Shown here one piece after another: positions 13,515 through 41,083 of a stretch of 43,170 bases of DNA; position 1 is the stretch's first letter; each line of letters opens with the position of its first letter. The notes below the pieces were generated by a model, which saw nothing but the letters and a program-made list of their open reading frames with translations, was not told the origin of the DNA and ran no database searches. The DNA comes from Marisediminitalea oceani (lineage in GTDB: Bacteria; Pseudomonadota; Gammaproteobacteria; Enterobacterales; Alteromonadaceae), in contig NZ_RCUA01000024.1 of assembly GCF_003731635.1 (NCBI RefSeq), positions 1 through 43,170 on the forward strand, in the 5' to 3' direction. The position numbers and the translations under genes are program-made.

Positions 13515-13848
13515 GCGATGTTCCGCCCGTGTTACTTATGATAAGCCCGCTTACAATATTAATGTACCTAACGAAACCGTGAAACGAAATACCTACTATG
13601 TAGGTCGCTTTGTAATTTCGCTAATGTCCCGTAATCTTAATGCTGAGCGCTATCAAGATGTTAGCCCTTAGGTCGCTGATTATGCAATGAAATCCTTGCC
13701 TTTGATCTATGATAATCCGTCTAATTGCATTTATTACCGAATTGTAATGTAGGGGTAATCTGGTTGTCAGGCGAGGGTGCTAACATCAGCAACAATTAAT
13801 AAACAGTCATTGACTGCTGTTTGTCAAACACCAAGGAACGACGAGACC
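13515..13848. promoter_or_regulatory. Divergent control region between cusR and copper genes
   Basis: 334 bases without a gene. ACCTAC-TAT-GTAGGT at 13591-13605 is a perfect dyad near the cusR side. TGTAAT-N5-GGTAAT at 13743-13759 is the second copy of the 11-base-spaced direct repeat, on the side of the efflux genes, with another single TGTAAT at 13611. The arrangement suits shared control of the two-component genes and the efflux operon. Confidence 0.5.
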
Positions 13849-14823: not shown

Positions 14824-16184
14824 TGAGACGCTTTTCATTTCATGTCATTGTACTAATGACGCTTTTGAATACTGGGCTCGCCCAAAGTCAAACCAAGTCG
14901 GTATTGACATTGGAGCAGGCTGTTGAAATCGCGATTAACAACGATCCTTGGCTTGTAGGCAGTGAGTATCGCGAGCAAGCCATTGTTTCAAGTAGCGTGG
15001 CAGCCGCTAGTTTGCCGGACCCGGTAGTTAATATTGGTTTAGCGAACTTACCAACAGATGGATTCGCATTCGATCAAGAACCCATGACGCAACTTAAGGC
15101 AGGGGTTTCACAGATGTTCCCCAGAGGGGATTCGTTAGATATTCGTTCTCGTCAATTAAGAGAGCAAGCCGCCGAGCACCCATTAATGCGTGCTGATCGC
15201 ATCGCCCGCACACGTGTGCAGGTCTCTGATATTTGGCTTGAAATTTATCGCGCGCAGCAGAGTATTAAGCTAATCCATCAAGATAGGGCATTGTTTGAGC
15301 AACTCAGTGACATTGCCAAAGCGAATTATGCGACCGCCCTTGGACGCGTGCGACAGCAAGACATCATTAGGGCAAAGTTAGAATTGACGCGGTTAGAAGA
15401 CAGATTAACAAAACTACAAGCACTGGAAGAACGCGCCACAGGTAAGTTATTGGAATGGATCCTAAAAAACCAGCAGTCTGCACGCCAACTTGGCTTTGAT
15501 GCATTTAGCGCGTTGCAGTTGCCTAATACATTACCTGCCATTGCAAAAATCACTGACAACACGTTGTTAATGGTAAAAAGGAAAAACCAACAACAGCTCG
15601 CGGAATTACTCGCAGATCACCCTTATATTTTATCCATTAATCAACGTATCAGAGCGAGTCAAACCGGGGTTGAGTTAGCTAAAGAAAAATACAAACCCCA
15701 ATGGGGCGTAAATGCCAGTTACGCTTTTCGCGATGATACCCCGGCAGGTGCAAGTCGAGCTGATTTCTTGTCAGTCGGTGTTAGTTTTGATTTACCTATT
15801 TTTACTGAAAACCGTCAAGACAAAGAAGTCTCTGCAGCCGTAAATCAATCAGAAGCCATAAAGACTGACAAGTTACTCGCACTGCGCGAAATGATGTCTG
15901 CCATCCAGTCGTTATACGCTGAGCGAGAACGTTTAACTGACAGGCAATCGTTATACAACGACGAGTTATTAGCACAAATGCAAGAACAAGCAGATGCGTC
16001 CTTGAATGCCTACACCAATGATGACGGCGATTTCGCCGAAGTTGCTCGCGCGCGTATCGCGGATTTGAATGCGCGTATTGATGCATTGGATATCGATGTG
16101 GATCTCGTCAGAACAAACATTCGACTTAATTATTACTTCAATACCACCGCAGGTATTTCCAAGACTCAATTCGGAGAACAATAA
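14823..16184 (+). CDS. cusC: CusC-like TolC-family outer membrane efflux channel
   Basis: 453 residues. Signal peptide 1-22 or so (ending NTGLAQSQT); no lipobox Cys, unlike E. coli CusC. Two OEP repeats are seen: residues about 30-230 start with LTLEQAVEIAINNDPWLVGSE, and about 255-445 include LADHPYILSINQRIRASQTG. The coiled helices are Gln/Arg/Leu-rich, as in TolC tunnels. The trimer would carry copper or silver from CusA/CusB across the outer membrane. It overlaps both neighbours by one base. Confidence 0.85.
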   Translation: MRRFSFHVIVLMTLLNTGLAQSQTKSVLTLEQAVEIAINNDPWLVGSEYREQAIVSSSVAAASLPDPVVNIGLANLPTDGFAFDQEPMTQLKAGVSQMFPRGDSLDIRSRQLREQAAEHPLMRADRIARTRVQVSDIWLEIYRAQQSIKLIHQDRALFEQLSDIAKANYATALGRVRQQDIIRAKLELTRLEDRLTKLQALEERATGKLLEWILKNQQSARQLGFDAFSALQLPNTLPAIAKITDNTLLMVKRKNQQQLAELLADHPYILSINQRIRASQTGVELAKEKYKPQWGVNASYAFRDDTPAGASRADFLSVGVSFDLPIFTENRQDKEVSAAVNQSEAIKTDKLLALREMMSAIQSLYAERERLTDRQSLYNDELLAQMQEQADASLNAYTNDDGDFAEVARARIADLNARIDALDIDVDLVRTNIRLNYYFNTTAGISKTQFGEQ

Positions 16185-18184: not shown

Positions 18185-21100
18185 TCGCTGCTATTATTCG
18201 ATGGTCAGTTTCCAACCGCTTCTTCGTATTACTGGCGACCTTAATTATTATCGGCGGTGGTTTATTCACGATAAAGAATACACCAATTGATGCATTGCCC
18301 GACCTATCTGATGTCCAGGTCATCATTAAGACGAGTTACCCTGGACAAGCACCTCAGGTGGTTGAAGATCAGGTGACTTATCCGCTTACAACAGCGATGT
18401 TGTCGGTACCAGGCGCTAAAACAGTCAGGGGTTATTCTTTCTTTGGCGACTCATATGTCTACATCATTTTTGATGACAGCACGGATCTATATTGGGCCCG
18501 AAGCCGCGTATTAGAATACCTGTCTCAAGTTGCTCCCAATTTGCCTGAAAATGCTCGGCCACAATTAGGCCCAGATGCAACGGGTGTGGGTTGGGTTTAC
18601 TTGTATGCATTGGTTGACCGCACAGGCAAAAACGACATATCACAACTACGTAGTCTGCAGGATTGGTTTCTCAAGTACGAACTGCAAACCGTTCCCGGTG
18701 TCTCTGAGGTTTCTGCGTTAGGCGGTATGGTAAAGCAATATCAAGTTAAAGTTGATCCTGAAAAACTGCGGGCTTATGGGATCCCGCTATCGCATATTCA
18801 AACGGCCATCAAAAGAGGCAACAAAGAAGTTGGCGCATCTGTTATTGAAATGGCTGAGGCTGAATATATGGTCAGGGCGACAGGGTATATTTCAAGCAAA
18901 CAAGATATCGAAACGATCCCTCTCGGCGTGAATGAAAATGGTACGCCGCTGTTGGTTAGGGATATCGCGGATGTGCAATTAGGCCCTCAAATGCGCAGGG
19001 GGGTCGCTGAGCTGAATGGCGAGGGAGAAACCGTAGGCGGCATCGTTGTAATGCGATTTGGGGAAAATGCTCAAACAACCATAAACGGAGTCAAAGCTAA
19101 ACTAGAAGACCTTAAAAAAGGATTGCCGGATGGTGTCGAAATCGTCACGGTTTACGATCGCTCAGCTTTGATTGAACGGGCGGTAGATAACTTGGCCTCC
19201 AAACTGGTAGAAGAGTTTATCGTCGTTGCCCTAGTGTGTATCGCGTTCTTATTTCATGTACGCTCTTCGTTGGTCGCAATTATAAGTATTCCTGTCGGAA
19301 TCATCACGGCAATCATCGTGATGTATATGCAAGGTATCAATGCGAACATCATGTCCTTGGGGGGGATCGCTATTGCTATTGGTGCAATGAGCGATGGGGC
19401 CATTGTCATGATCGAAAATATGCATAAGCATATGGAGCGAACCCCCCTGACGAAAGAAAATCGATGGCAGGTCGTCATGGATTCAGCGTCTGAAGTCGGA
19501 CCTGCGCTGTTTTTCAGTTTGTTGATCATCACCGTTAGTTTCGTACCAGTGTTTACGCTAGAAGCGCAAGAGGGCAGGATGTTCTCGCCGCTTGCATTCA
19601 CCAAAACATATGCGATGGCCGCTTCCGCAGCGCTTGCTATCACCTTGGTGCCAGTTTTGATGGGGTACTTTGTGCGCGGTAAAGTACTTGCGGAGCATAA
19701 GAATCCTGTAAATCGGTTCTTGACGTTTTTATACATGCCAACACTGAAAACGGTATTACGTTTTCCCAAGTTGACCATGCTGGTCGCCGTTATAGTACTG
19801 GGAATTGGGCTTTGGCCAATTGATAAGATCGGTAGCGAATTTATCCCGCCGCTTGATGAAGGTGACTTAATGTATATGCCGACGACTTATGCCGGTATTT
19901 CGATAGGTAAAGCACGCGAGTTATTGCAACAAACCAATAAACTGATCAAGACCGTTCCTGAGGTCGAAACGGTGTTTGGCAAGGTCGGCCGAGCCGATAC
20001 GGCAACCGATCCTGCGCCATTAACAATGATAGAAACGTTTATACAATTAAAACCTCAAGATCAATGGCGTGAAGGCATGACTACCCAAGATCTGATCAAA
20101 GAATTTGATGCTGTGGTTAATTTGCCGGGGTTAACGAACGCATGGGTTATGCCAATTAAAACGCGGATTGATATGTTGGCTACCGGTATTAAGACCCCCG
20201 TTGGCATCAAGATTGGAGGTCCAGATCTCATGGAAATTCAAAAGATTGGTCAACAAATTGAAACGATACTTTCAGATGTTGAGGGCACGGCATCCGTTTA
20301 TTCAGAGCGCGTTGCCGGCGGGCGTTATGTCAAAGTCGATATCCAACGTGAACGGGCCGCTCGCTATGGTCTCAACATAGCAGACGTTCAACAAGTTGTT
20401 TCTAGTGCCATTGGAGGAATGAATGTTACACAGAGCGTCGAAGGATTAGAGCGCTACCCAGTGAATATTCGATATCCACAATCATATCGCTCATCACCTG
20501 AATCATTGTCATTGTTGCCTATTGTCACACCACAAGGCAAACGCATTGCGTTGGCTGATGTCGCGGATGTGTATATTGAAGATGGTCCCCCAGGCATTAA
20601 AAGTGAAAATGCACGCCTTAATGGCTGGGTGTATGTGGATATTGATGGCGTAGACATTGGCTCTTATGTCGTCGCGGCGCAGCAGGTCGTCAGTGAGGAG
20701 CTGGTATTGCCTGCAGGATACTCCATAACGTGGTCGGGACAATATGAATATATGATGCGGGCAAAAGAAAAATTAACCTATGTAGTGCCATTGACTTTAG
20801 CTATTATCGTGATCTTGTTATACCTCAACTTCCGCAATTTTATTGAAGTAGCGATCATCATGGGAACGTTGCCTTTATCGATGGTCGGTAGTATTTGGCT
20901 TATGTACTTAGAGGGGTATAACTTTTCAGTGGCAGTGGGCGTTGGCTTCATTGCATTGGCCGGGGTCGCTGTCGAGATTGGCGTCATTATGCTGGTGTAC
21001 TTGAATCATGAGTACCAGGCGTTAATCGACAAATGCAAAATGGACGGTATCAAACCCACCGTAGGAATGCTAACCGAAGCCGTATTGCATGGCGCGGGTT

Positions 21101-21315
21101 TGCGTGTCCGGCCAGTCATGATGACGACCGCAACCATTATATTCGGACTATTACCGGTACTTTATGGCTCAGGTACGGGGTCTGAAGTGATGAGTCGTAT
21201 CGCTGCGCCCATGGTGGGCGGGATGGTCAGTGCGATTTTATTGACGCTACTTATTTTACCAGCCATTTATTTAATATGGCGAAAACAGCAGCTCAAAACG
21301 ATGAGTAATTGGTAG
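18181..21315 (+). CDS. cusA: CusA/CzcA-family heavy-metal RND efflux pump
   Basis: 1044 residues, full length for the HME-RND family. Twelve membrane helices in two sets: one after residue 8 and a group at about 340-530, then a second half with the last group from about 870. Typical family blocks are DALPDLSDVQVIIKTSYPGQ near the N-terminus, VALVCIAFLFHVRSSLVAI, the proton-relay helix around GAMSDGAIVMIENMHKHMER, RIDMLATGIKTPVGIKIGG, and GSEVMSRIAAPMVGGM near the end. It is driven by the proton gradient and pumps from periplasm or cytoplasm through CusB and CusC. Copper/silver specificity is inferred from the CusF-like domains and neighbours. Confidence 0.9.
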   Translation: MIAAIIRWSVSNRFFVLLATLIIIGGGLFTIKNTPIDALPDLSDVQVIIKTSYPGQAPQVVEDQVTYPLTTAMLSVPGAKTVRGYSFFGDSYVYIIFDDSTDLYWARSRVLEYLSQVAPNLPENARPQLGPDATGVGWVYLYALVDRTGKNDISQLRSLQDWFLKYELQTVPGVSEVSALGGMVKQYQVKVDPEKLRAYGIPLSHIQTAIKRGNKEVGASVIEMAEAEYMVRATGYISSKQDIETIPLGVNENGTPLLVRDIADVQLGPQMRRGVAELNGEGETVGGIVVMRFGENAQTTINGVKAKLEDLKKGLPDGVEIVTVYDRSALIERAVDNLASKLVEEFIVVALVCIAFLFHVRSSLVAIISIPVGIITAIIVMYMQGINANIMSLGGIAIAIGAMSDGAIVMIENMHKHMERTPLTKENRWQVVMDSASEVGPALFFSLLIITVSFVPVFTLEAQEGRMFSPLAFTKTYAMAASAALAITLVPVLMGYFVRGKVLAEHKNPVNRFLTFLYMPTLKTVLRFPKLTMLVAVIVLGIGLWPIDKIGSEFIPPLDEGDLMYMPTTYAGISIGKARELLQQTNKLIKTVPEVETVFGKVGRADTATDPAPLTMIETFIQLKPQDQWREGMTTQDLIKEFDAVVNLPGLTNAWVMPIKTRIDMLATGIKTPVGIKIGGPDLMEIQKIGQQIETILSDVEGTASVYSERVAGGRYVKVDIQRERAARYGLNIADVQQVVSSAIGGMNVTQSVEGLERYPVNIRYPQSYRSSPESLSLLPIVTPQGKRIALADVADVYIEDGPPGIKSENARLNGWVYVDIDGVDIGSYVVAAQQVVSEELVLPAGYSITWSGQYEYMMRAKEKLTYVVPLTLAIIVILLYLNFRNFIEVAIIMGTLPLSMVGSIWLMYLEGYNFSVAVGVGFIALAGVAVEIGVIMLVYLNHEYQALIDKCKMDGIKPTVGMLTEAVLHGAGLRVRPVMMTTATIIFGLLPVLYGSGTGSEVMSRIAAPMVGGMVSAILLTLLILPAIYLIWRKQQLKTMSNW

Positions 21316-29698: not shown

Positions 29699-29715
29699 TG
29701 TAATGATTCTGTAAT
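29699..29715 (+). promoter_or_regulatory. Candidate CusR/CopR-type box (copy 3)
   Basis: TGTAAT at 29699-29704 and 29710-29715, 11 bases apart, followed by CC exactly as at 10885. It lies between the minus-strand SDR-FAD gene and the plus-strand Met-rich/redox operon, so either could be the target. Confidence 0.5.
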
Positions 29716-29993: not shown

Positions 29994-30449
29994 ATGAAAA
30001 CATTAACGTCATTATTACTGGCCAGCGCCCTTGTCGCTGCGCCAATTGCGACTTCTTACGCGCATCAACACACTGATAAATCTGACATGCCGATGATGGA
30101 CGGTCAGATGATGAAGAAAATGCAAACACATATGGAAGAAATGCAAGCAGTTTTAGATGCAGTAAAAAGTGAATCTGATCCTGAAAAGCGTGAAGCCATG
30201 TTGCATGAGCATGCCCAAAAGATGCAAGACATGATGGGCATGATGGAAGGCAAAGATTCGATGGGAATGAAAGATGGAAAAGGAATGAAAGGCGGCATGG
30301 GCATGGAGCATAAACACAGTGATATGTCGACCGATGAGAAAATGAAAATGATGGAACAGCGTATGGCCATGATGGAAGACATGATGGGGCAAATGATGGG
30401 ACATACGGCTGAAAAAGCGAAGCCAATACACAAGCATAAAAAGAACTAA
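29994..30449 (+). CDS. Secreted Met/His-rich putative copper-binding protein
   Basis: 151 residues from ATG 29994, after AAAGGAAAA; a frame opening at 29970 is less likely. Signal peptide to about residue 23 (ends TSYAH). About 30 Met and many His residues follow in helical patterns (MMDGQMMKKMQTHMEEM; MQDMMGMMEGKDSMGM; MAMMEDMMGQMMGH), with a HKHKK tail. Such Met-rich sequences bind Cu(I) or Ag(I) in the periplasm. No defined family. It is first downstream of the MerR-type promoter, with a terminator after it, so it may be made in excess over the following genes. Confidence 0.8.
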   Translation: MKTLTSLLLASALVAAPIATSYAHQHTDKSDMPMMDGQMMKKMQTHMEEMQAVLDAVKSESDPEKREAMLHEHAQKMQDMMGMMEGKDSMGMKDGKGMKGGMGMEHKHSDMSTDEKMKMMEQRMAMMEDMMGQMMGHTAEKAKPIHKHKKN

Positions 30450-30461
30450 TCAATGCGTTAT

Positions 30462-30493
30462 GAGGCAGGAAAAGCGACTGCCTCTTTTCTTTT
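30462..30493 (+). terminator. Rho-independent terminator after Met-rich gene
   Basis: GAGGCAG (30462-30468), loop GAAAAGCGA, CTGCCTC (30478-30484), then TTTTCTTTT. An exact 7-bp stem plus T tract. It lies within the run of same-strand genes and would lower transcription of the genes that follow. Confidence 0.75.
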
Positions 30494-30513
30494 AATAATC
30501 GCGGGAGTTTTAC

Positions 30514-30870
30514 ATGAAAAAATTAATCAAGCTTTTATCAATTGCAGTCTTGTCTGTTGGGCTACTAGGGGGCTGTGCAAGCCAGATATACCATGACTAC
30601 ATCATGAGTGGGCAGGTTGTTACCGTCGATGATAAACAAGTAGTGGTGTGTGTCTCTGACACCGATGGTCTCAAAGAACATCAAGTCTTTAATGTTTATC
30701 GCACCGTTTTTGATGCGACAGCAATTTCTGAAGGGGAAGACGGCTACTCGCGCGAATTCGTGGGCAAAATTCGATTAGGTAAAACGAAGGATGAGCATTT
30801 TGCAGAGGCTATTGTACTTGATGGCGAACTAGCACGTTATGACATGGTCGAGTTTGATCGTGGGTTTTAG
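30514..30870 (+). CDS. Small lipoprotein of unknown function
   Basis: 118 residues. Lipoprotein signal with lipobox LGGC at Cys21. The mature part looks like a small beta-barrel: SGQVVTVDDKQVVVCVSDTD, HQVFNVYRTVFD, FVGKIRLGKTKDEHFAEAIV, and VEFDRGF at the end. This pattern, in which values of a property are repeated as strands, resembles FlgT/SH3-like envelope lipoproteins that accompany metal efflux loci. A ribosome site GGGAG precedes the ATG. Function is not known. Confidence 0.6.
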   Translation: MKKLIKLLSIAVLSVGLLGGCASQIYHDYIMSGQVVTVDDKQVVVCVSDTDGLKEHQVFNVYRTVFDATAISEGEDGYSREFVGKIRLGKTKDEHFAEAIVLDGELARYDMVEFDRGF

Positions 30871-30899
30871 TCGATATTTTTGAATAGGAGCATGCCGTT

Positions 30900-31745
30900 G
30901 TGAAGATTAGAGAGTGTCACCAAACCTACCGTTTAGCGGCTATTGTGAGTCTGGTATTATCTAGTGTCTTATTCACAACCGCGTGTTCAGCGATAACACA
31001 ACAAACTAGTTCGAAAGAAAAACCTAAAGAAACACAATCTTCAGACACTACGCCCGAGTTAGCGCCGGCTGACTTTGCAAAGATCCAATCAGCTTTGCGC
31101 TCATTAGACAACTCACTGGTAGCGCAATCAAAAAGCAATACCGGCGTTAAACAGAGCGATACCAGCCCTCAACTCAACGAATCATCTACGCCCCCCCAAG
31201 CGACGAGCAAGATGAAGATGGGCATGGGAAAAGGGAAAAAGAAGATGACAATGAACGGAAAGTCTTGCATGGGGATGATGTGTAAGATGATGATGAAAAA
31301 TAGTTCGATGATGGGTATGCCTCCTGAACAAAATACACCGGAGATATCCAAACCTTCATCAACGATAAGCTTGCCAGGTGCGAGTAGTGCACCTCATATT
31401 TACCACCTTGGTGAACAAGCCTTTTTCTTAAACCATACAACAACATTAGAAATAACAGATACGCAGTATCAAACGTTGTTATTGATTCAATCTGAGTGGG
31501 AGTCTTTCCAAAAAAGCCTTGCGCAGCAGCGTAGTGCATTAGAGGCATCATTGTGGGAATTGACAGCCCAAGGATTGCCTCAATACGACAATATTAAAGA
31601 CACCATTAGTAAAATAGAGGCCATAAACAGCACCCTACGCCTACAGTTTATTGCTTCGGTGGGGAAAGCCGTCTCTGTATTAACACCCCCGCAGATTGCG
31701 AAAATAAATGCGCTGTGGGCGGCTGAACAAAAGGATGCGTCATGA
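30900..31745 (+). CDS. Met-rich lipoprotein with CpxP/Spy-like metal-sensor domain
   Basis: 281 residues, GTG start at 30900 with TAGGAG nine bases before. Lipobox TTAC near residue 29. The middle (about 95-145) is Met/Lys-rich: KMKMGMGKGKKKMTMNGKSC, MGMMCKMMMKNSSMMGMP. The C-terminal third (about 170-281) is an all-helical pair like Spy/CpxP/ZraP: LEITDTQYQTLLLIQ, QKSLAQQRSALEASLWEL, VSVLTPPQIAKINALWAA with two LT/ITxxQ-type motifs. It would bind copper in the periplasm or act as a sensor or chaperone. Its stop overlaps the next start (ATGA), tying it to the reductase. Confidence 0.7.
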   Translation: MKIRECHQTYRLAAIVSLVLSSVLFTTACSAITQQTSSKEKPKETQSSDTTPELAPADFAKIQSALRSLDNSLVAQSKSNTGVKQSDTSPQLNESSTPPQATSKMKMGMGKGKKKMTMNGKSCMGMMCKMMMKNSSMMGMPPEQNTPEISKPSSTISLPGASSAPHIYHLGEQAFFLNHTTTLEITDTQYQTLLLIQSEWESFQKSLAQQRSALEASLWELTAQGLPQYDNIKDTISKIEAINSTLRLQFIASVGKAVSVLTPPQIAKINALWAAEQKDAS

Positions 31746-33679
31746 CTAGGGGGAGTAAACGCGCATCAATGATTCACCGCTATTGTGTCATTCTAAACGT
31801 CGTTCTTTTTTTCGTGATTATAAATGCGCACGCACAGCAACAGACTGAGGATAGTGAGCATGCCAGTCATCATCCTGAGGCAGCGAATGGGCCGATTGTT
31901 GCGGCAAGCACAGATTCTCCAGCTTTAGCCAGCCAAGTTAAAGGTCAGCCGGGCAATGCCAACGCAATGATGGGGCCAGGTATGGCAAAAGGCATGGATA
32001 AAATGATGGAGAAAATGGGAGCGCCTAAACCTAAAGATCTCTATCCAACTTTAATGCGGATGCAATCAACCACGCCGGAACAAAGAGATAGTATCTTAGG
32101 CAAAGCGTCGGCGCGTATGCAACAAGGAAGTGAACAACTGACTACCGGGTTTGAATCGCTCGCCCGTGCCGCAGCCGTTGATGACTATACCCAAATGCAA
32201 GTAGCTGTTGAGACCGTTAAAGAAGGGATCGCGCATTTTGATAGTGGTCTGGCGGCAAAACGGGCAATACAAGATGGGCAAGAGCCCAGAAGAGTGGCAT
32301 TAACCTGGTTTAAATCGCAAATGAATTTGCTACCCAGTTCACCAGTGAATGATTCCTCAACACTATTTGGCATGACGCCGTTTCATACTGCAGTGATGCT
32401 TGTTCTGCTGATCTTCACTGTCGTCATGGTGTATGTTTATGGATTTAAAATGCGCAGAGCTGCCGCATTGCTAGAAGAGCTTAGGTCCACTGAGACCGCA
32501 AGCGCTTCTGCGCCCACGAAGCACACATCACTTAACGAGATACCTACTAACGCACCTGTAGGGACTGACGCTGTTTTAATACCCGCTACAGCGCAGGCAT
32601 TATCTTCTACGACTATGTCACCGCGTAAAGGTGTCTATAGCGGCAGTATGCAAGTCACCGGTATTTTTCATGAGACCCATGATGTTAAAACGTTTCGACT
32701 TGCCAGCGCCGATGGTCAAGTCATCCCATTTAGTTTTGAACCTGGACAATTTGTGACTTTTACGCTCACGATTGATGGTGTTGAAAAACCGGTGAAGCGG
32801 TCTTACACCATCGCATCATCACCCACTGAGCAGTATTACTTTGAAGTCACCATCAAACGCGAGGAATTCGGTGTTGTTTCTCGTCATATGCATGACGTCG
32901 TAAATGTGGGAGATACGCTTTCAATTAAAGCGCCTGGCGGCAAGTTTTACTTCAATGGTCAAGATGCAAGTAGCGTTGTATTGATTTCAGGGGGGGTTGG
33001 GATCACGCCCATGATGAGCGCGGTGCGTTATTTAACCACGACGTGCTGGGACGGTGACATTTATTTTCTGTTTTGTACGCGAACGTCTAACGATTTTATT
33101 TTTGAACAGGAATTAAAATATCTACAAGCACGTCACCCAAGGTTGAAAGTACTCGTCAGTATGACACAGGCGGATGGCACTTCTTGGATGGGACCTCAGG
33201 GGCGTTTTTCATCGGCATTGATAAATGAATTCGTGCCGGACATAGCATTAAAAACAGCACACATTTGTGGGCCGCCGGCAATGATGGATGCAACCAAGGA
33301 TATTTTATCTGAATTGGGTATGCCTGAAGCGAATATTAAAACAGAAGCTTTCGGTGGTGCGAGTCCGAAGAAAACGGCCACTAAAACGGAGGTTGCCCCA
33401 AACACGCCTGCAAACAATACGCGCCAAGTGCGATTTAGTTTATCAAATGCACAGGCACAAGCCGGCACAGATGAAACCGTATTGGACGTTGCTGATGGAC
33501 TTGATGTTGATATTGAGAATTCGTGCCGGGCAGGCTCTTGCGGCAGTTGCAAAGTGAAATTACTGCGCGGCGATGTTGATATGGAGGTTGATGATGGGTT
33601 GGAGCCAGAAGATAGGGTCAGTGGTTATATTTTAGCATGTCAAGCCATCCCTAAAACTGATGTGGAGGTGGAAGCATAG
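31742..33679 (+). CDS. Membrane-anchored FAD/NAD(P)H reductase with C-terminal 2Fe-2S domain
   Basis: 645 residues; ATG 31742, or an internal ATG ten codons later. Signal anchor about 10-30, then a periplasmic part with His/Met patches (HASHHPEA, MMGPGMAKGMDKMMEKMG). A membrane helix follows at about 213-232 (TAVMLVLLIFTVVMVYVYGF). The cytoplasmic part has an FNR module from about 298: FAD motif KRSYTIASSP, SGGVGITPMMSAVRY, end block CGPPAMMDATKD. A ferredoxin domain carries Cys595, Cys600, Cys603 and Cys633. This predicts electron flow from NAD(P)H to FAD to 2Fe-2S at the membrane. It overlaps the b-type protein gene by one base (TAGTG). Confidence 0.85.
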   Translation: MTRGSKRASMIHRYCVILNVVLFFVIINAHAQQQTEDSEHASHHPEAANGPIVAASTDSPALASQVKGQPGNANAMMGPGMAKGMDKMMEKMGAPKPKDLYPTLMRMQSTTPEQRDSILGKASARMQQGSEQLTTGFESLARAAAVDDYTQMQVAVETVKEGIAHFDSGLAAKRAIQDGQEPRRVALTWFKSQMNLLPSSPVNDSSTLFGMTPFHTAVMLVLLIFTVVMVYVYGFKMRRAAALLEELRSTETASASAPTKHTSLNEIPTNAPVGTDAVLIPATAQALSSTTMSPRKGVYSGSMQVTGIFHETHDVKTFRLASADGQVIPFSFEPGQFVTFTLTIDGVEKPVKRSYTIASSPTEQYYFEVTIKREEFGVVSRHMHDVVNVGDTLSIKAPGGKFYFNGQDASSVVLISGGVGITPMMSAVRYLTTTCWDGDIYFLFCTRTSNDFIFEQELKYLQARHPRLKVLVSMTQADGTSWMGPQGRFSSALINEFVPDIALKTAHICGPPAMMDATKDILSELGMPEANIKTEAFGGASPKKTATKTEVAPNTPANNTRQVRFSLSNAQAQAGTDETVLDVADGLDVDIENSCRAGSCGSCKVKLLRGDVDMEVDDGLEPEDRVSGYILACQAIPKTDVEVEA

Positions 33680-34437
33680 TGAATAGTCAAGAGCGTACCA
33701 TTGTAGGCAGCTTGGTGGTCTTAATGATCTTACTTTGGCTAGGGTTTGTGTGGCACCGTGACCCTGCATTCCCTGGCAGCTTTGCTGGATTTGTCGTTGG
33801 TTTGACTGCGCTGGTATTAATGTTTATTCCGTTGCTTTACATGATCATTAAACGCAACAAAGCACTAAAGAAAGTCGTGACCAAGCAAATAGCCATGCCT
33901 ACGCTGCTGCGCATTCATATTTATGCTGGAGTATTGGGACCTATTCTTGCACTCATCCATAGCGCTCATCGTTTTGATAGTGCTACTGGAGTCTCCATCA
34001 TCATCTTTATGATGGTCGTTGTGATCAGTGGGTTTGTTGGTCGGTATGTGCTAGGGCTTATTTCCTCAAATGTAAAAGAGAAAAAGCGTCAAGTGACAGA
34101 ACTCCAAGGTGCACTTTCAAGCGCCAAACAATCGCTTAAAGACGCGGTCTGCGACGTAAGATATTCGACTTTCGCCCAAACATCAGCGAGACACATTCCA
34201 TACATTGCTTTAAGTGTACCTACTTCAGCGCAAAGTAAGCTGTTTCGACAAGAGAGTAAGGTTCTATCCATTATCGATGCCATTTCTGATGTTGAATACA
34301 GCATTCTGATTCACGACACTGCGAAAACTTGGTTTGCTCGTTGGTTGAAGTTTCATATCGTGATTTCGATAACGCTCTATGGCGTATTGTTCTTTCACAT
34401 TTTCAGCGAAGTTTATTTTGGACTACGCTGGTTATGA
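33679..34437 (+). CDS. Four-helix b-type-cytochrome-like membrane protein
   Basis: 252 residues, GTG start. Helices: about 8-25, 33-57, 75-95 with His in HIYAGVLGPILALIHSAHRF, 98-120, and a last helix KFHIVISITLYGVLFFHIF. Two His in each of two helices, spaced about 13-14 residues, suit two stacked b hemes. A soluble loop of about 125-215 separates the last helix. This resembles ferric-reductase and NapC/DsrM-like quinone or heme membrane proteins, but no named family is certain. It sits between the FAD/2Fe-2S reductase and the seven-heme cytochrome, overlapping both, as an electron carrier across the membrane. Confidence 0.7.
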   Translation: MNSQERTIVGSLVVLMILLWLGFVWHRDPAFPGSFAGFVVGLTALVLMFIPLLYMIIKRNKALKKVVTKQIAMPTLLRIHIYAGVLGPILALIHSAHRFDSATGVSIIIFMMVVVISGFVGRYVLGLISSNVKEKKRQVTELQGALSSAKQSLKDAVCDVRYSTFAQTSARHIPYIALSVPTSAQSKLFRQESKVLSIIDAISDVEYSILIHDTAKTWFARWLKFHIVISITLYGVLFFHIFSEVYFGLRWL

Positions 34438-35228
34438 TCAAGTGGATAATAGTTATTCTGGGCTTAGTTGCAGCGGGCTTTGGTGTTAGCCATTTTTTTC
34501 ACACACCAGAGGATCTTGCAAAAATTCCGTGGGAACAAATGGTAGAGCCTGGTTCACTGAGCAAAGCGCATGCGTTTTTGGCGGATGACTGCTTGAGTTG
34601 TCACACGCCAGTAGAAGGCGTTGAGCGCGACAAGTGTGTCGCCTGTCATGCAAATGATACCCATATCGTCGCGCGTCAACCTACTGCGTTTCACGCCGAC
34701 ATAACAGAATGTGCTAGTTGTCATACTGAGCATCAAGGTGAGGATGCTAAGATTTCACTGATGAACCATATTGCATTGGTCGATATTGGGTTCAATATGC
34801 TCCCCAACCCAAACGTGCCATTTGACGAAGGCGCAGCCACGATGGCTTTTTTAGAAAATGTTCTAGCGAATAAGCAAACGGCTGATCCCCTATTTGTGCA
34901 TCCCGACGTCAGTGATAAAGAAGCATTATTGAATTGTTCACAGTGCCACAGCAACGATGATCGCCACTTCACGTTGTTCGGAGAGGATTGCGTGCAATGC
35001 CACAGTACAGACAAGTGGTCACTGCCGACGTTTATTCACCCCTCGAGTCAATCTCGTGATTGCAATCAATGTCATGAAGCGCCGCCCAGTCACTACATGC
35101 AACATTTTAAAATGATTTCCGCCAAAGTCGCTGGCGAGCCAAAAGCCAAAGTGGAGGCGTGTTATGCCTGTCATCAATCGACTTCCTGGAACGATATTAA
35201 GCGTGCCGGCTGGTACAAGCATCATTAA
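34434..35228 (+). CDS. Membrane-anchored seven-heme cytochrome c
   Basis: 264 residues from ATG 34434 (ATGA overlap with the previous stop); a frame opening at 34329 lies inside the previous gene. An N-terminal helix (WIIVILGLVAAGFGVSHFF) anchors it. Seven CxxCH heme sites are visible in order: CLSCH (from Cys53), CVACH (Cys68), CASCH, CSQCH, CVQCH, CNQCH, CYACH. Extra His residues (HIVARQ, HPDVSD, HYMQHF) can serve as second ligands. This is a periplasmic multiheme electron carrier of the cytochrome c3/c7-like class. It would pass electrons from the b-type protein to an outside or periplasmic acceptor. Confidence 0.88.
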   Translation: MIKWIIVILGLVAAGFGVSHFFHTPEDLAKIPWEQMVEPGSLSKAHAFLADDCLSCHTPVEGVERDKCVACHANDTHIVARQPTAFHADITECASCHTEHQGEDAKISLMNHIALVDIGFNMLPNPNVPFDEGAATMAFLENVLANKQTADPLFVHPDVSDKEALLNCSQCHSNDDRHFTLFGEDCVQCHSTDKWSLPTFIHPSSQSRDCNQCHEAPPSHYMQHFKMISAKVAGEPKAKVEACYACHQSTSWNDIKRAGWYKHH

Positions 35229-35240: not shown

Positions 35241-36464
35241 GTGATCACAAATTCCATTGCGCTGGCAACCTCACTGTTGGTAGCAATAGTATTGTTTCTG
35301 CCTCGCCTACGACAATCTGTCCAATGGCGAGCAACAGTCACCCCGTTGGCTTCAATAATTGGCAGTGGCTTTTTGATCATTGCACCACTGCTGCATTCGG
35401 TGATGGGCAAATGGGCGCTGCTGGGCATTATTCTGTTGTCCATTCTGGCATATACGTTGGGTTCGGTCATTCGCTTCAATATACGTCACGCAGAGCCTGA
35501 GCTTGCTCGCAATCCCCACGGCAGTATCGCAACGCTTGAGAAAGCCAGTCAATGGGCACTTGGCGCTGCCTATGCGATTTCCGTGGCGTTTTACATTAGC
35601 TTGTTTGCCGCATTTGTCTTTGACCGCTTGGCTATCGCTGATACAACACTCATTAAATTGTTTACCAGTGGGCTGCTTGTCATCATTATGCTGGTCGCTT
35701 GGCTTCGCGGTGCGAGAGGGCTAGAGACCATCGAGCTATTCGCGGTAACCATTAAGTTGGCGATTATTGTGGGTGTGCTTGTCGCGCTGGCAACCTACGA
35801 CATACAAGTCCAAAGTGCGTGGTTTAAACACGAAGCGATACAATCCCTCAGCCATTTTGAAACCCTTAGTATGCTCGCGGGTATGCTCATGGTTACGCAA
35901 GGGTTTGAGACAACGCGCTTCATGGGCAGTAACTACAATGCAGAGCAGCGCATTAAAGCAGGGCGATATGCCCAGTGGATTGCCATTTTTCTTTACGCTG
36001 TGTTTATTGGTTTAACCTGTCCCATATTTCTCGATTTTCCGATAACCGAACTGAATGAAACCACCATTAGTTATACCCTGGGTCAAGCCATTTGGGTATT
36101 GCCCATATTATTGTTAGTGGCAGCGACAGCAAGTCAGTTAAGCGCCGCATTGGCCGATACTATCGGTGGCGGAGGACTGCTAAAAGAACTCTTCCACTTA
36201 CCCATATCTCCTCAGTTTTACTATGTTCTGGTTATCGCGATTGCAGGCATATTAGTTTGGTCATCCAACGTATTTGAAATCATTAATCTCGCGTCAAAGG
36301 GATTTGCACTGTATTACCTTATACAAACACTCATCGCATTCAAGCTAGTACTACTGCGCCCCAAAGAACAACGCTTCAAATCGCTTCAATTGCTTGGTCT
36401 TTGCGCGATTGTTGTTTCCTTATCCTTTGTGATTGGCTGGTCGATACCAGCACAGCACAGTTAA
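35241..36464 (+). CDS. APC-superfamily-like permease
   Basis: 407 residues, GTG start preceded by GGGGGAG. About eleven hydrophobic helices; the glycine-rich first helix has IIGSGFLIIAPLLHS, as in amino acid/polyamine/organocation transporters, and HGSIATLEKASQWALGAAYA follows. It also has a GFETTRFMGSNY loop with an Arg, and ends after FVIGWSIP. The substrate cannot be told. It is 12 bases after the seven-heme cytochrome gene. The 16 bases after its stop lead straight into a truncated hypF, so this may be an old deletion edge. Confidence 0.7.
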   Translation: MITNSIALATSLLVAIVLFLPRLRQSVQWRATVTPLASIIGSGFLIIAPLLHSVMGKWALLGIILLSILAYTLGSVIRFNIRHAEPELARNPHGSIATLEKASQWALGAAYAISVAFYISLFAAFVFDRLAIADTTLIKLFTSGLLVIIMLVAWLRGARGLETIELFAVTIKLAIIVGVLVALATYDIQVQSAWFKHEAIQSLSHFETLSMLAGMLMVTQGFETTRFMGSNYNAEQRIKAGRYAQWIAIFLYAVFIGLTCPIFLDFPITELNETTISYTLGQAIWVLPILLLVAATASQLSAALADTIGGGGLLKELFHLPISPQFYYVLVIAIAGILVWSSNVFEIINLASKGFALYYLIQTLIAFKLVLLRPKEQRFKSLQLLGLCAIVVSLSFVIGWSIPAQHS

Positions 36465-36480
36465 TAGAGGACAGAGGCTA

Positions 36481-36765
36481 ATGCAATCCGCAAAAACATG
36501 TTCGCCAGCAGTTCGCGTCGCAAATTTTCACGCATCACTCATTGAAACTGCGTGGGAGTTAACCCAGCGTTGTCGCAAAAAGTATGATTTCAAACATATT
36601 GGTTTGGCCGGAGGCGTCTTCCAAAACCGCATTTTATGCGATGGCCTAGCTGAACGTTTTGCACAATCAGACATTCCTGTTGTTATCCCAAGCAGTTTAC
36701 CTTTAAACGATGCAGCAATAAGTGTCGGGCAAATTCACGAATATTGCTCAAGGAGATCATCATGA
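36481..36765 (+). pseudogene. hypF: HypF C-terminal fragment, still with start and ribosome site
   Basis: 94 codons from ATG 36481, after GAGGACAGAGG. From VRVANFHASLIETAW on, through HIGLAGGVFQNRILCDGL to SSLPLNDAAISVGQIHEY, it matches the end of the Kae1-like carbamoyltransferase domain of HypF. The acylphosphatase, zinc-finger and YrdC domains, about 650 residues, are absent. It cannot do the complete HypF reaction. The frame overlaps hypE by ATGA, the native operon spacing, so the break is only on the 5' side. It may be a leftover that keeps hypE translated. Confidence 0.8.
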
Positions 36766-37814
36766 AAGGCATAGAGCGTAATAATCGAGCATCATCAGAA
36801 CCGTTGGACACCGATACTATTCGGTTAGCGCAAGGCAATGGTGGAATATTGACCAAAAAACTTATTAATGATGTGTTTAAAAATACTGCCAATAAAGAAC
36901 TAGATCTGCTACACGACGCGGCTTCGGTAACCTTCGCAGGTCCCTTTCTGAGTATGACAACCGATAGCTTCGTTGTCTCACCTTACACATTTCCAGGTGG
37001 CAATGTGGGGGCATTAAGTATTTACGGTACCGTGAATGATCTGGCTGTCGTTGGCGCGACCCCTCGGTATATCAGTACTGCATTCATTATTGAAGAAGGC
37101 TTTTCGATGACGGCTCTCAAGGAGGTTGTCCATAAAATGCATCAAGCTGCTGTAGAAACCAATGTGTCCATAATAACGGGAGATACTAAAGTCGTTCCAA
37201 AGGGATTCGGTGGTGGCGTTTATATCAATACAACGGGTGTGGGTGACAGCCAAGAAACACCAATTTGGGATACGAGTCTTATAAGGCCGGGCGATCATGT
37301 ACTTGTCAGTGGCTCTGTTGGCGATCACGGTGCTTGCGTATTACTGGCGCGTGAGGACTATGGGTTGCATGGCCAATTAAAGTCCGACTGTGCCAGCGTT
37401 TTCCCGTTAGTCAATGCAATCAGAGACTTAGAAGGCGTTCGTTTTGTCCGAGACCCAACGCGTGGAGGACTATCAGTGTTACTCCATGACGTGGCAACTG
37501 AAACGGGTTTCAATATCGAGCTAATTGAAAATAACATTCCGGTGCGTCCAGAGGTCGCAAGCGTGTGTGACATTCTAGGCTTTGATCCTTTCGTTTTGGC
37601 TTGTGAGGGACGCGTTATTGCAATTGTCAGTCCCGATATTAGCAGCGAAGTACTCACTCATTGGCGGGGTATAAAAAACGGTGAAAATGCCCAACATATT
37701 GGTGTTATATCAAAAAATACAGACTTAAAGGGCCGCGTGTCGATTATTACGCCAATGGGAGGGCGACGCTTCATGAGTGAACTTGAAGATGAGCCACTTC
37801 CACGGATCTGTTGA
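36762..37814 (+). CDS. hypE: HypE, hydrogenase cyanide-ligand maturation protein
   Basis: 350 residues, full length. It has an AAGGAG ribosome site inside the hypF remnant. PurM-like fold: KLINDVFKNTANKELD, TDSFVVSPYTFPGGNVGALS, GTVNDLAVVGATPRYIS, ITGDTKVVPKG, RDPTRGGLSVLLHDV, and the canonical C-terminal tail ending PRIC, whose Cys carries the thiocyanate that becomes Fe-CN. All motifs are intact. It normally needs HypF and works with HypC and HypD. No hydrogenase subunit or other hyp gene is in the window. It either serves a hydrogenase elsewhere or is a survivor of a lost cluster. Confidence 0.92.
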   Translation: MKGIERNNRASSEPLDTDTIRLAQGNGGILTKKLINDVFKNTANKELDLLHDAASVTFAGPFLSMTTDSFVVSPYTFPGGNVGALSIYGTVNDLAVVGATPRYISTAFIIEEGFSMTALKEVVHKMHQAAVETNVSIITGDTKVVPKGFGGGVYINTTGVGDSQETPIWDTSLIRPGDHVLVSGSVGDHGACVLLAREDYGLHGQLKSDCASVFPLVNAIRDLEGVRFVRDPTRGGLSVLLHDVATETGFNIELIENNIPVRPEVASVCDILGFDPFVLACEGRVIAIVSPDISSEVLTHWRGIKNGENAQHIGVISKNTDLKGRVSIITPMGGRRFMSELEDEPLPRIC

Positions 37815-37933: not shown

Positions 37934-38344
37934 ATGCGGGTAAAACAAATAGCAGATGCACTAGATATTAGCGTTGATACCGTACGCTATTATACGCGCA
38001 TTGGACTTTTGGTCCCAAATAGATCCCACAATGGATACAAGTATTATCGGCCGGCGGATGTGACGCGACTACGATTCATTTTAAGTGCTCGGTCACTAGG
38101 TTTTTCGGTCAATGATATTAAAGAGATCCTAGTTACATCTTCACAAACCAATGCGCCGTGTCCAACGGTAAGGCGTCTTATTGAAAAGAGGTTGAAAGAG
38201 ACTGAACAGCGGTATCAGGACATGCATGAACTTAGAGAGCGCATGCGCTTAGCCACTTCAGAGTGGCAAAACAAACCCGATCAACCTCCAACGGCCGATA
38301 CGATATGCCATTTAATTGAAGGTTTCACAGCGCTTAAGTCATAA
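37934..38344 (+). CDS. MerR-family metal-responsive regulator
   Basis: 136 residues. N-terminal winged helix VKQIADALDISVDTVRYYTR with the RIGLLVP wing, then the long dimer helix (about 80-115). Candidate metal ligands are Cys in NAPCPTVRRL and Cys-His in ICHLIEGF, placed like those of the CadR/ZntR/CueR group but with their own spacing. In the metal-free state it would repress, and in the bound state untwist, the 19-bp-spacer promoter upstream. First gene of the copA operon. Copper is the likely signal given the neighbours, but zinc, cadmium or lead cannot be excluded. Confidence 0.85.
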   Translation: MRVKQIADALDISVDTVRYYTRIGLLVPNRSHNGYKYYRPADVTRLRFILSARSLGFSVNDIKEILVTSSQTNAPCPTVRRLIEKRLKETEQRYQDMHELRERMRLATSEWQNKPDQPPTADTICHLIEGFTALKS

Positions 38345-38368: not shown

Positions 38369-40717
38369 ATGAATTCTAAAACAGACAGTGCGAAAGCACA
38401 TGGGTGTTGTAGTGGCGGCGATAAAACATCAACTGCGAACGAAGCGGTTGACACTAAAACGCAGACCAGACAGGTGTCTTCCGATGCAGGCGAGATACAA
38501 CTTAATATTCAAGGGGCGAGTTGTGCCAGTTGCGTCACTAAAATTGAAATAGCCTTAAAACAAGTCGCAGGCGTCACCAGCGCAGAAATGAACTTTGCAC
38601 AGCGTACAGTGCTTATCAATGGTAATGCCTCGCCAAGCGAACTGGTTGGTGCGGTAGAAGAAGCTGGGTATAACGCAACGCTGGCAAATGCCGATTCTGA
38701 TGAGGCTGCCATTGAAGAAAAAGAGCAAGCGGATTGGGCATATTATAAAAAGCTAATGCGACACATGGTCATCGCATTGTCGCTTGGAGTACCGCTCATG
38801 ATCTATGGTTTGGTAACCGGGGAAATGAGCGTCAACACGACCACGGAGCGAATTGTATGGTTGATTATTGGGCTCATGACATTAGGTGTCATGGTGTTCT
38901 CTGGTCGGCATTTTTATGTGGGTGCATGGAATTCGTTTAAAAATCATTCGGCCAATATGGATACTTTGATAGCCTTGGGTACAGGAACCGCCTGGTTGTA
39001 CTCGATGACAGTTGTGTTCTTCCCGGGCTATGTCCCTGAAATGGCACGACATGTTTATTTTGAGGCAACCGCTATGATCATCGGCCTAATTAATTTAGGC
39101 CTGGCCCTTGAGATCAAAGCACGCGGTAAAACCTCAGAGGCCATTAAAAGGCTGATAGGCTTGCAAGCCAAGACTGCACGTGTCATCCGAGATGGCGATG
39201 ATATTGATATTCCTATTGAAGATGTTTTGCTCAATGATCTTATCCGGGTTCGACCCGGAGAACGCATTTCTGTGGATGGTGTAGTCGTCGAGGGCCAAAC
39301 CAGTATTGATGAATCAATGCTAACGGGTGAGCCTATGCCAATTGAGAAGCGAAAAGACGATGAGGTTGTGGCCGGTACCATCAACAAATCAGGCTCTATC
39401 GTCTTTCGGGCAGAACGCGTGGGAAAAGACACCGCGCTAGCTCAGATCATCAACATGGTAAAACGTGCACAAAATTCAAAACCACCTATTGGTCGATTGG
39501 CAGATGTTATTTCTGCCTATTTCGTGCCGGTTGTTATGATCATTGCCGTAATGAGCGCACTAGCGTGGCTCAATTTTGGTCCGGCTCCCGAGGTTGCCTT
39601 CGCAATCGTGTCAGCAACCACGGTACTGATTATTGCATGTCCTTGCGCATTAGGTTTAGCCACGCCGATGTCGGTCATGGTGGGGGTTGGCAAGGCGGCT
39701 GAAGCAGGCGTACTTATCCGCAACGGTGAAGCGCTGCAATCTGCTTCGAAAATTACCACAATGGTATTAGATAAGACCGGCACCATAACAGAGGGGGCGC
39801 CTAAAGTTACCGACGTTGTTATTGCGTCAGCTCACAATCAAGATGACGTGCTTTCGTTAGCTGCAAGCCTGGAGTCGGGTTCCGAACACCCACTCGCAAT
39901 GGCGATCGTTGAATCAGCGAAAGAGCAAGGTGTGCCGATCCACTCGGTGACTGATTTTGAGTCCATTGCAGGGAAGGGCGTAGCGGCAACACTGAATTCT
40001 CAGCGTTTGCTATTTGGCAATGAAAAATTGATGAAAGAAAAATCAATAGAACTTCATCATTACGTTGATAAAGCGCAGAGGCTGGCCGCAGAGGCTAAAA
40101 CCCCAATGTATTTCGCGATTGATTCAAAATTAGTTGCCGTCATTGCTGTTGCCGATCCAATAAAATCAGACTCAATAGATGCGATTAACCGCCTACAGCA
40201 CAACGGAATACGTGTGGTGATGTTGACGGGGGACAATCGTATGACTGCAAAAGCCGTTGCTCGAAAGGCGGGGATTGTTGATTACGTTGCTGAAGTGATG
40301 CCAGAAGATAAAGCAAACAAAGTGCTCGAACTTCAACGTGAGGGTGAAATCGTCGGAATGACCGGCGATGGGATCAATGATGCGCCCGCCTTAGCCCATG
40401 CCAACGTCGGATTTGCTATCGGAACAGGCACTGATGTCGCAATAGAAAGTGCAGATATCACGTTGATGCGAGGCTCCTTACATGGGTTAGCGGATGCGAT
40501 TGCAGTGAGTAAGGCAACGCTGAGAAACATAAAGCAGAATCTCTTCGGAGCATTTATCTATAACGTCGCGGGGATCCCATTTGCTGCAGGTGTTTTTTAT
40601 CCATTTTTAGGCTTACTACTTAGCCCAGTAATTGCCGGTGCAGCGATGGCATTCTCGTCGTTAACGGTAGTGACCAACGCGAATCGATTACGTTTATTCA
40701 AAGCTAAAGAGCACTAG
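38369..40717 (+). CDS. copA: CopA-like Cu(I) P1B-type ATPase
   Basis: 782 residues. N-terminal extension with a HGCCSGG motif (Cys13-Cys14). One HMA domain with Cys52-x-x-Cys55 in GASCASCV. Membrane helices start at about 130; the ion path has Cys424-Pro-Cys426 (CPCALG), phosphorylation Asp468 in DKTGTITEG, the SEHPLA motif, TGDN, and hinge [11 protein letters not shown]. The late helices have the YN and MxxSS signatures ([16 protein letters not shown]) used by Cu(I) pumps. It exports copper from the cytoplasm. Starts 24 bases after merR with no promoter between, so it is co-transcribed. Confidence 0.93.
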
Positions 40718-40729: not shown

Positions 40730-41083
40730 ATGATGTGGATTAATTTGATAGGGTTAGTCGTGATTGGGCTTATTGTTTGGTGGTTTTGGCTTTACCAAAC
40801 AAAGTCAACTGAAGTACGAGACGGCAGCATCGAAGTCCGCGTGAAAGATGGCGTGTATCAACCTGCCAATATCACAGTGCCCGCGAATGAGTCTGTACAA
40901 CTGATGTTCTACAGAGAAGATGCGACTCCCTGTGCGGAAACACTACTAATACCCGAGTTGGAGATCAGTGAAACATTAGTGCTTAACCAGCGTGTGATGG
41001 TCACTATTCCCCCCCAAAAGGCAGGTCGCTATCCGTTTCATTGTCAGATGCAAATGTACCGTGGCACTTTGGTGATCAAGTGA
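40730..41083 (+). CDS. Membrane-anchored cupredoxin-like protein
   Basis: 117 residues, ATG at 40730 with AGGAGAA before it. One N-terminal helix (LIGLVVIGLIVWWFWLYQ), then a cupredoxin beta sandwich: VYQPANITVPANESVQLMFY, Cys in DATPCAETLLIP, and the C-terminal metal loop FHCQMQMYRG with His, Cys and two Met. This is the layout of single-domain Cupredoxin_1 proteins often coded next to CopA. It probably receives copper in the periplasm. It is 12 bases after copA. Confidence 0.8.
   Translation: MMWINLIGLVVIGLIVWWFWLYQTKSTEVRDGSIEVRVKDGVYQPANITVPANESVQLMFYREDATPCAETLLIPELEISETLVLNQRVMVTIPPQKAGRYPFHCQMQMYRGTLVIK

Follow-up and report, generated by a model that had tools for sequence, protein, structure and literature searches.

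A candidate NAD(P)H-driven periplasmic metalloreductase, most likely for Cu(II), in a copper island of Marisediminitalea oceani

In bacteria, Cu(II) reduction and copper tolerance have been linked to the membrane protein CcoG, which has two 4Fe-4S clusters and an unknown electron donor. In MsrQ/Fre and the bacterial NOX enzymes, of the ferric-reductase superfamily, a cytosolic flavin enzyme feeds a membrane protein whose four histidines hold two b hemes, and electrons exit on the outside (PMC5676040). PepSY-type reductases (FoxB) and the DUF4405/FezC proteins are likewise membrane proteins in which conserved central histidines carry b hemes; DUF4405 has six helices, the partners are flavinylated, and no heptaheme partner is named in the accessible text (PMC11334425). 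We describe here a set of six plus-strand genes, identified by open reading frame (ORF) calls at 29994-35228 of a 43,170-nucleotide stretch of Marisediminitalea oceani DNA (contig NZ_RCUA01000024.1, hereafter the window; Table 1). Its core consists of three genes, for a membrane-anchored flavin and 2Fe-2S reductase, a predicted di-heme b membrane protein, and a cytochrome with seven c-type heme motifs.

The set shares with MsrQ and NOX the predicted plan of a flavin enzyme feeding a b-type membrane protein, and with FoxB and DUF4405 the conserved central histidines. It differs from MsrQ and NOX in that five helices are predicted, not six, and PF01794 is matched only at weak E; its flavin enzyme forms a subunit of its own, anchored in the membrane and equipped with a 2Fe-2S domain, and a heptaheme cytochrome follows the b-type protein. 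Flavin, 2Fe-2S, b and c hemes are predicted here in place of the clusters of CcoG, and no 4Fe-4S domain is among the Pfam matches of the three core proteins. We read the set as probably a new metalloreductase that draws on NAD(P)H and acts in the periplasm, with Cu(II) as the likeliest substrate. Export of electrons across the inner membrane, to which conserved cofactor motifs and topology point, is highly probable; that copper is the main acceptor we consider about an even call. An earlier note on this DNA, made by a model from the letters and ORF translations, did not recognize the set as a named system. That holds insofar as no description of the gene set as a system was found in the open-licence literature, subscription papers being outside the scope of the search; to judge by gene order, two of its members have been published as orf1 and cyt, with no function.

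The redox core and its conservation

The last four of the six genes overlap by 4, 1 and 4 bases, in line with the 1-4 bases given in the earlier note, whose same-strand set with overlapping 3' genes is real; it spoke of five genes and correctly listed the six that are present. One genome per species was scanned with a 26-sequence alignment of the b-type protein (25 relatives and the window's own), and the best 80 of 152 confirmed loci were analyzed; many are metagenome-assembled genomes, and taxon labels were taken from record titles. The gene order that the note had singled out for comparison across genomes proved general: reductase, b-type protein and cytochrome follow each other on one strand in 80 of 80 loci, and the set is therefore no local oddity. 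By title the loci belong to Alteromonadales, other Gammaproteobacteria (including Legionella), Halobacteriovorax, Planctomycetes, Verrucomicrobiales, Hydrogenedentota, Nitrospirales, Nitrospinaceae and others. Sampling within the class gave a match in 33 of 274 genomes, that of the window among them; G179 aside, every match outside the window's own genome is remote, at E 1.6e-18 or weaker. A close copy is present in nine of 60 relatives within genus and order. The set also stands on nine plasmid records (Alteromonas 7, Glaciecola 1, Salinimonas 1) and has therefore moved between replicons and genera. These records label its genes "hypothetical protein", "2Fe-2S iron-sulfur cluster-binding protein" or "cytochrome c3 family protein". 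Distance correlations among the three core proteins (0.53-0.70; 0 of 2,000 permutations for the two pairs tested) are given no weight, because shared descent would yield them too.

In the 645-aa reductase, FAD_binding_6, NAD_binding_1 and Fer2 all score above the Pfam cut-off, and the order of FAD, NAD and plant-type 2Fe-2S domains is that of GbcB/PaaE-type reductases. An NCBIfam scan gave 255.7 of 500 bits for GbcB, and none among the 25 models listed of 33 reaches its cut-off. The motifs RSYT (353), GGVGIT (417) and CX4CX2CX29C (595-633) are present, and the four 2Fe-2S cysteines occur in 75 of 75 rows of an alignment that omits six truncated loci (L030, L036, L048, L068, L094, L102) and adds the window. 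The N terminus is signal-like, ending, as read by eye, in AHA just before a Q, and is followed by a secreted stretch and one further hydrophobic segment, a transmembrane segment at about 217-235, after which the FAD/NAD(P)/[2Fe-2S] domains are predicted to be cytoplasmic. Near the mature N terminus H40, H43 and H44 are each kept in 74 of the 75 rows, a methionine cluster at 85-92 (M85/M88/M89/M92) in 69-72, and H215, at the start of the membrane segment, in all 75.

The 252-aa b-type protein has five hydrophobic segments, with charges that place the N terminus inside and the C terminus outside by the positive-inside rule. Six histidines (H26, H80, H94, H97, H226, H240) are invariant in 81 of 81 rows and H212 is found in 77; two HX13H pairs, H80-X13-H94 and H226-X13-H240, are thus present throughout. 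We predict a di-heme b protein, in which likeness to NOX-type four-histidine proteins would pair H80 with H226 and H94 with H240 (PMC5676040). An AlphaFold2 model (pLDDT 81.7, pTM 0.64) has five membrane-length helices. No Pfam family scores above cut-off in this protein, the 118-aa lipoprotein or the two Met-rich proteins of the set; PF01794 is matched by 14 of the 26 members at E up to 1 (best 0.019; the window's protein is not among the listed matches) and DUF4405 by 11 of 26 at weak E. A search for the b-type protein gave 359 relatives, and none of the 120 matches listed has a precomputed Pfam domain. Fold searches with the model (Foldseek, VIA) were filled by coiled-coil rows, and the best E of a Protein Data Bank (PDB) sequence search with the alignment was 0.16.

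Two variants of the b-type protein were seen among the relatives. Eight of them (520-575 aa; L056, L059, L065, L066, L071, L076, L077, L083) carry a C-terminal extension, expected on the periplasmic side, which is DUF547 (PF04784) in L059, the one scanned, and looks alike by eye in the other seven. A remote b-type family (277-326 aa in L112, L113, L115) is followed directly by a larger multiheme cytochrome, and in L113 and L115 a divergent 4Fe-4S and Pyr_redox reductase stands beside it (domain-scanned in L115). This arrangement is a parallel class of electron-export set with another reductase.

The 264-aa cytochrome combines one N-terminal hydrophobic anchor with seven CXXCH motifs. Exactly seven are present in 78 of 80 cytochrome frames, the other two (L048, L077) running off the contig; in an alignment without these two loci and with the window added, the seven motifs and seven distal histidines (H46, H87, H100, H112, H178, H202, H220) are found in 79 of 79 rows. 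Seven invariant distal histidines for seven c hemes fit bis-His hemes with no open site, and on this ground we reject a catalytic open-site heme. The best E of a PDB sequence search with the cytochrome was 0.5. Pfam assigns it Mtrc-MtrF_II-IV (PF22113; 33.2 bits, cut-off 30), as well as Cytochrome_C7 and Paired_CXXCH. MtrC/MtrF-type cytochromes are ten-heme outer-membrane lipoproteins, from which the window's protein, with PF22113 in common, differs in its seven motifs and its N-terminal anchor. Topology, cofactor motifs and conservation all agree with the path drawn in the earlier note, from NAD(P)H through FAD, 2Fe-2S and b heme to periplasmic c hemes.

The predicted bis-His hemes bear on the idea that the set does not reduce copper and instead repairs periplasmic Met-rich copper proteins, by methionine sulfoxide reduction of the MsrPQ kind, or detoxifies peroxide. 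In its favor, MsrQ too holds heme b in the membrane and receives electrons from a cytosolic flavin reductase (PMC5676040), and the partner proteins described below are rich in methionine. However, invariant distal histidines on all seven c hemes leave peroxide no open site, and no MsrP-like molybdoenzyme or methionine sulfoxide reductase is among the 20 annotated recurrent neighbor clusters (45 listed). We consider such a role very improbable.

Methionine-rich partners and the copper neighborhood

The 281-aa lipoprotein encoded just before the reductase has a homolog in 52 of 80 loci (phmmer match, at least 200 aa, and at least nine Met in some 60-residue window), which supports the earlier note in joining the core to Met-rich proteins. 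Methionine makes up 5.0% of the whole protein (14/281), versus 2.94% of the other window proteins of the panel, and is clustered at about 105-139; H166, Y168, H169 and G171 are invariant in 53 rows, the window included. The note's "CpxP-like" applies to the family: with E up to 1 allowed, Metal_resist (PF13801) is found in 17 of 21 sequences, the best at 9.1e-10, and LTXXQ in 13 of 21. It does not apply to the window's own protein, which matches neither. Its structural model is confident at 180-281 only, and the leading Foldseek rows, at weak E, include CnrX, ZraP, CpxP and Spy. The family may share with these proteins a C-terminal helical hairpin with LTxxQ motifs, and differs by the added Met-rich stretch and an invariant HxYHxG motif. 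In the 151-aa secreted protein 31 of 151 residues are Met. It has homologs in 18 loci, all among L024-L050, and the 118-aa lipoprotein in 17, 16 of them in the same range. On the sense strand, 45 of 56 loci have a Met-rich ORF upstream of the set; on the antisense strand the count is 7 of 56, and among 420 ORFs in other parts of the loci it is 7.

The window is a copper island, with a CusS-type sensor and its regulator, CusCBA, CopC, CopD, a CueR-like regulator, a P-type ATPase and a cupredoxin. For the other loci, neighbor genes were called by phmmer on flanks of up to 10 kb, genes beyond contig ends being missed, and a gene was counted as copper-type if it resembled a member of a panel. Of the 58 loci with 3 kb or more to either side, 46 have at least one such gene, which amounts to 27 of 34 clusters when the b-type proteins are grouped at 80% identity; by a strict list, from which CusA, CusB, CueR and the PepSY fusion are left out, the count is 38 of 58. 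The core genes are thus not routinely found without copper genes; routine occurrence without them was what the earlier note had named as telling against its copper link. Multicopper oxidases were found close to the set in 19 of 29 genomes, where their genome-wide number would predict 0.32; the 30 loci behind this figure (29 used) were picked from the 80 for long contigs after the neighbor table had been seen, and are nearly all outside Alteromonas. Over all loci the count is 29/80, and 27/53 in L051-L103.

A direct-repeat box, TGTAAT-N5-TGTAAT, stands upstream of the operon, where a CusR-type response regulator, that of the window at 12837-13514, presumably binds it. In the whole 4.99-Mb genome the exact box occurs twice, both times in the window, at 10885 and 29699 (0.02 expected in the window); with one mismatch there are three in the window versus 0.34 expected, and with up to two mismatches the window's seven, versus 6.18 expected, are not significant. 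The 80 loci (1.34 Mb) contain 13 exact copies, of which 11 are upstream of the set in Alteromonas-like loci, several of these upstream regions being near-identical DNA; many of the loci L024-L034 are near-identical as well, and the box and neighbors shared there are not independent. The gene next after the box is the Met-rich gene in five of the 11, and another gene in L024, L028, L029, L035, L037 and L040. Among relatives the box stands before the operon in four (G003, G004, G022, G030), about 6 kb before the b gene in G029, and between a multicopper-oxidase-like gene and CopCD in three. Just downstream of the exact box at 10885, a short piece (11068-11391) resembles the start of a TonB-dependent receptor.

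Other genes recur around the set. The window holds a second membrane flavoreductase (22018-23850, with 21309-22016), PepSY_TM (below cut-off) joined to Fer2 and FNR domains, beside another PepSY-like protein, CopC and CopD; matches to this flavoreductase come after the heptaheme gene in the planctomycete loci L051, L052 and L061. A glutamate-dehydrogenase-type gene (PF00208 in L061) is near the set in 25 of 80 loci (planctomycete, Nitrospirales, Legionella and others), a DUF1622-like gene in 14 and a Na/H-exchanger-like gene in 11.

Table 1. Features of the window, with the six-gene set first
Feature	Positions	Strand	Details
Small secreted Met-rich protein, predicted Cu(I)/Ag(I) binder	29994..30449	+	151 aa from ATG, 20.5% Met
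Small lipoprotein	30514..30870	+	118 aa
Lipoprotein, Met-rich stretch and C-terminal Spy/CpxP/CnrX-like helical domain, predicted metal-binding chaperone	30900..31745	+	281 aa
Membrane-anchored FAD/NAD(P)/[2Fe-2S] reductase	31742..33679	+	645 aa, Pfam and motifs
Five-helix membrane protein, predicted di-heme b	33679..34437	+	252 aa, two HX13H pairs
Membrane-anchored periplasmic heptaheme c cytochrome, predicted all bis-His	34434..35228	+	264 aa, seven CXXCH
Direct-repeat box TGTAAT-N5-TGTAAT upstream of operon, predicted CusR-type regulator site	29699..29715	+	exact match
One-mismatch box, divergent gap between response regulator and cus operon	13743..13759	+	
Orf2 (by gene order), multi-helix membrane protein, no Pfam family	35241..36464	+	11 hydrophobic segments
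HypF C-terminal fragment, remnant of deleted hydrogenase operon	36433..36765	+	PF22521
HypE, left from same deleted operon	36744..37814	+	TIGR02124 above cut-off
CusS-type sensor kinase and OmpR-family response regulator	11435..13514	-	PF21085, PF00512, PF02518; PF00072, PF00486
CusC, CusB (three CusF-domain stretches), CusA-like RND efflux	14823..21315	+	PF02321, PF16576, PF11604 (3 stretches), PF00873
CueR-like MerR regulator (metal presumed)	37934..38344	+	PF13411, PF09278
CopA-like heavy-metal P-type ATPase (copper specificity presumed)	38369..40717	+	PF00122, PF00702, PF00403
Cupredoxin-domain protein	40730..41083	+	PF13473

The hydrogenase connection

The published pRC41 insert, from the HynSL cluster of Alteromonas macleodii, carries orf1/cyt/orf2/hynD/hupH/hynS/hynL and hyp genes (PMC3102683). 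As judged from the way the genes are arranged in L104 and on the plasmids, orf1 would be the b-type gene, cyt the heptaheme gene and orf2 the 407-aa gene; in the A. macleodii work these three were tested as hydrogenase accessory genes, with no function given in the accessible text. The reductase and Met-rich genes lie outside the insert, since it starts, as listed, at orf1. In Escherichia coli Orf2 was needed for maximal HynSL activity and Orf1 and Cyt were dispensable (PMC3102683). Orf2 accompanies the set in 23 of 80 loci, 14 of which have no hynS/hynL in reach. A copper study of A. macleodii from coatings places hydrogenase genes and a copA cluster in the same island; the words "cytochrome", "reductase" and "methionine" are absent from its text as accessible (PMC8478169).

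In close relatives a [NiFe] hydrogenase operon follows the set; in the window, where a hypF tail and hypE remain, this operon has been deleted. The earlier note had missed this context, as well as the published orf1 and cyt. Plasmid pGLAAG01, 98.7% identical over the core, has the operon intact: the set is followed by a hypothetical gene, a hydrogenase protease, HupH, the small and large subunits, hypCABDFE, a MerR regulator and a copper ATPase. Hydrogenase genes come directly after the set in pAM1A3 as well, and in L104 (G013) genes of matching length follow (407, 184, 144, 340 and 625 aa). A Tat signal (SRRTFLKF) is present in HynS. In pGLAAG01 and pAM1A3 the hydrogenase stretch has neither a cytochrome b nor an Isp subunit among its annotated genes, the plasmid gene tables being incomplete. 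The alignment of L026 and L027, which keep the hydrogenase, to the window stops at about 36524; L025 has the same deletion junction as the window, L024 and L034 are without hypE too, and none of these has lost a core gene. The operon, which lies between the redox set and the copper ATPase genes, has been eroded stepwise (window 36433-37814; L024, L025, L034).

These arrangements would fit a set that serves as the electron outlet or inlet of a periplasmic [NiFe] hydrogenase, with electrons passing from H2 through HynSL, the heptaheme cytochrome and the b protein to NAD(P)+, and with the copper genes as mere island neighbors. The adjacency of the genes, the Tat signal, the lack of an annotated cytochrome b or Isp, and the cloning of orf1 and cyt within the hydrogenase cluster (PMC3102683) would all be explained. 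However, no more than 9 of 80 loci, each gammaproteobacterial by title, have hynS/hynL downstream of the set; deletion of the hydrogenase has left the set whole; and Orf1 and Cyt were not needed for maximal HynSL activity. Given no constant link, we reject the set as mainly a hydrogenase part and consider it unlikely to be an outlet or inlet for the enzyme.

Other details concern the loss of the operon. The b genes of the window and L025 differ by a dS of 0.12 with no amino-acid change; recombination may underlie this pattern, because other genes show very low dS. G004 has the set and no PF00374 match. A second HypE on contig C13 of the window's genome (G000) is no copy of the same cluster: tblastn with HynL, HynS, HynD, HypD and HypF versus L023 (C13:58000-76000) found only a 35% HypD. 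Other [NiFe] large subunits lie at C13 79073 and 84561, and G000 is thus not hydrogenase-free.

Proposed function and its implications

In the mechanism that we propose, NAD(P)H would reduce FAD and then the 2Fe-2S center of the 645-aa protein on the cytoplasmic side, the electron would step through two b hemes of the five-helix protein (H80/H226, then H94/H240), and it would spread over the seven bis-His c hemes of the anchored cytochrome. The acceptor would be periplasmic Cu(II), which the reductase itself might hold on its secreted arm, with HxxHHP and a Met-rich part. Two partners, the Spy-like lipoprotein with its Met-rich stretch and the small Met-rich protein, would bind the Cu(I) and hand it on to exporters of the Cus and CopA types. 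In some Gammaproteobacteria the periplasmic (Tat-signal) [NiFe] hydrogenase would have been added behind this wire, and may feed it. We put the chances at about one in two that the set is an electron-export complex from NAD(P)H to periplasmic Cu(II) whose Met-rich partners hold Cu(I) for export. The fuller version, a widespread cupric reductase with arm-held Cu(II) and a Spy-like Cu(I) chaperone, into whose wire the alteromonad hydrogenase plugs so that H2 pays for copper reduction, is more tentative, and we think it somewhat likelier to fail than to hold.

A number of observations weigh against reduction of copper by this set. The reaction is one that we infer, the heme content and copper binding of the complex are predicted, and so are the substrates of the panel-assigned copper-type genes. 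Neither copper nor hydrogenase genes are present in 9 of the 58 loci (L056, L057, L058, L060, L064, L065, L066, L067, L071), three more have a hydrogenase and no copper genes within reach, and the nine loci with hynS/hynL belong here too. Multicopper oxidases are Cu(I) oxidases, and since they are among the commonest neighbors, a Cu(II) reductase is not their obvious partner. The upstream box is not specific: 11 relatives hold 17 exact boxes versus 5 for a reversed control pattern, 5 of the 17 lie in one unrelated gap (between genes read as carbonic-anhydrase and LysR-type) and 4 of 17 elsewhere, and G013 has the set and no exact box near it; the link of the box to the set is suggestive. The low dN/dS of the three core genes, 0.03-0.13 versus copies 80-91% identical, counts in favor of the proposal but tells little about selection after hydrogenase loss, because the loci compared (L028, L033, L104) still have the hydrogenase.

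A further point on the same side is that 10 of the 80 loci, each of them within L024-L050, have close to the set a porin-like gene with a gene for a two-heme cytochrome c next to it (upstream in L028, L029, L035, L037, L038, L039, L040 and L047, downstream in L043 and L046). L024 and L031 have only a one-heme piece of the porin-linked cytochrome, upstream. The one pair scanned, in pGLAAG01, gave Porin_O_P just above cut-off and cytochrome c. The pair is possibly an outer-membrane extension of the wire, and an outer-membrane or extracellular acceptor would therefore suit too. The set might then export electrons more generally, to another metal (Ag, Te, Se, Fe, Mn) or, via the outer membrane, to an acceptor outside the cell, which would agree with the loci that have no copper genes and with the remote b relatives, which pair with larger multiheme cytochromes and, in two of the three loci read, with a 4Fe-4S/Pyr_redox reductase. 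The small number of loci with the pair speaks against this, as does the window, where none was noticed; moreover, copper-type genes are the dominant neighbors, and the reductase's His/Met arm together with the Met-rich partner are soft-metal features. A general wire therefore seems doubtful, if less so than a hydrogenase outlet or inlet.

If the set is a periplasmic Cu(II) reductase, it would bear on a process whose route in bacteria is largely open, and a core linking cytosolic NAD(P)H to periplasmic copper proteins in several phyla offers a genetic handle on it. The breadth and invariance of the set would be surprising to a specialist. The set adds a membrane b-type family that is poorly covered by Pfam, and points to plasmid-borne genes of copper islands that now stand under generic record names. 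It also suggests what two "orf/cyt" genes in a hydrogenase cluster employed for biohydrogen work might do.

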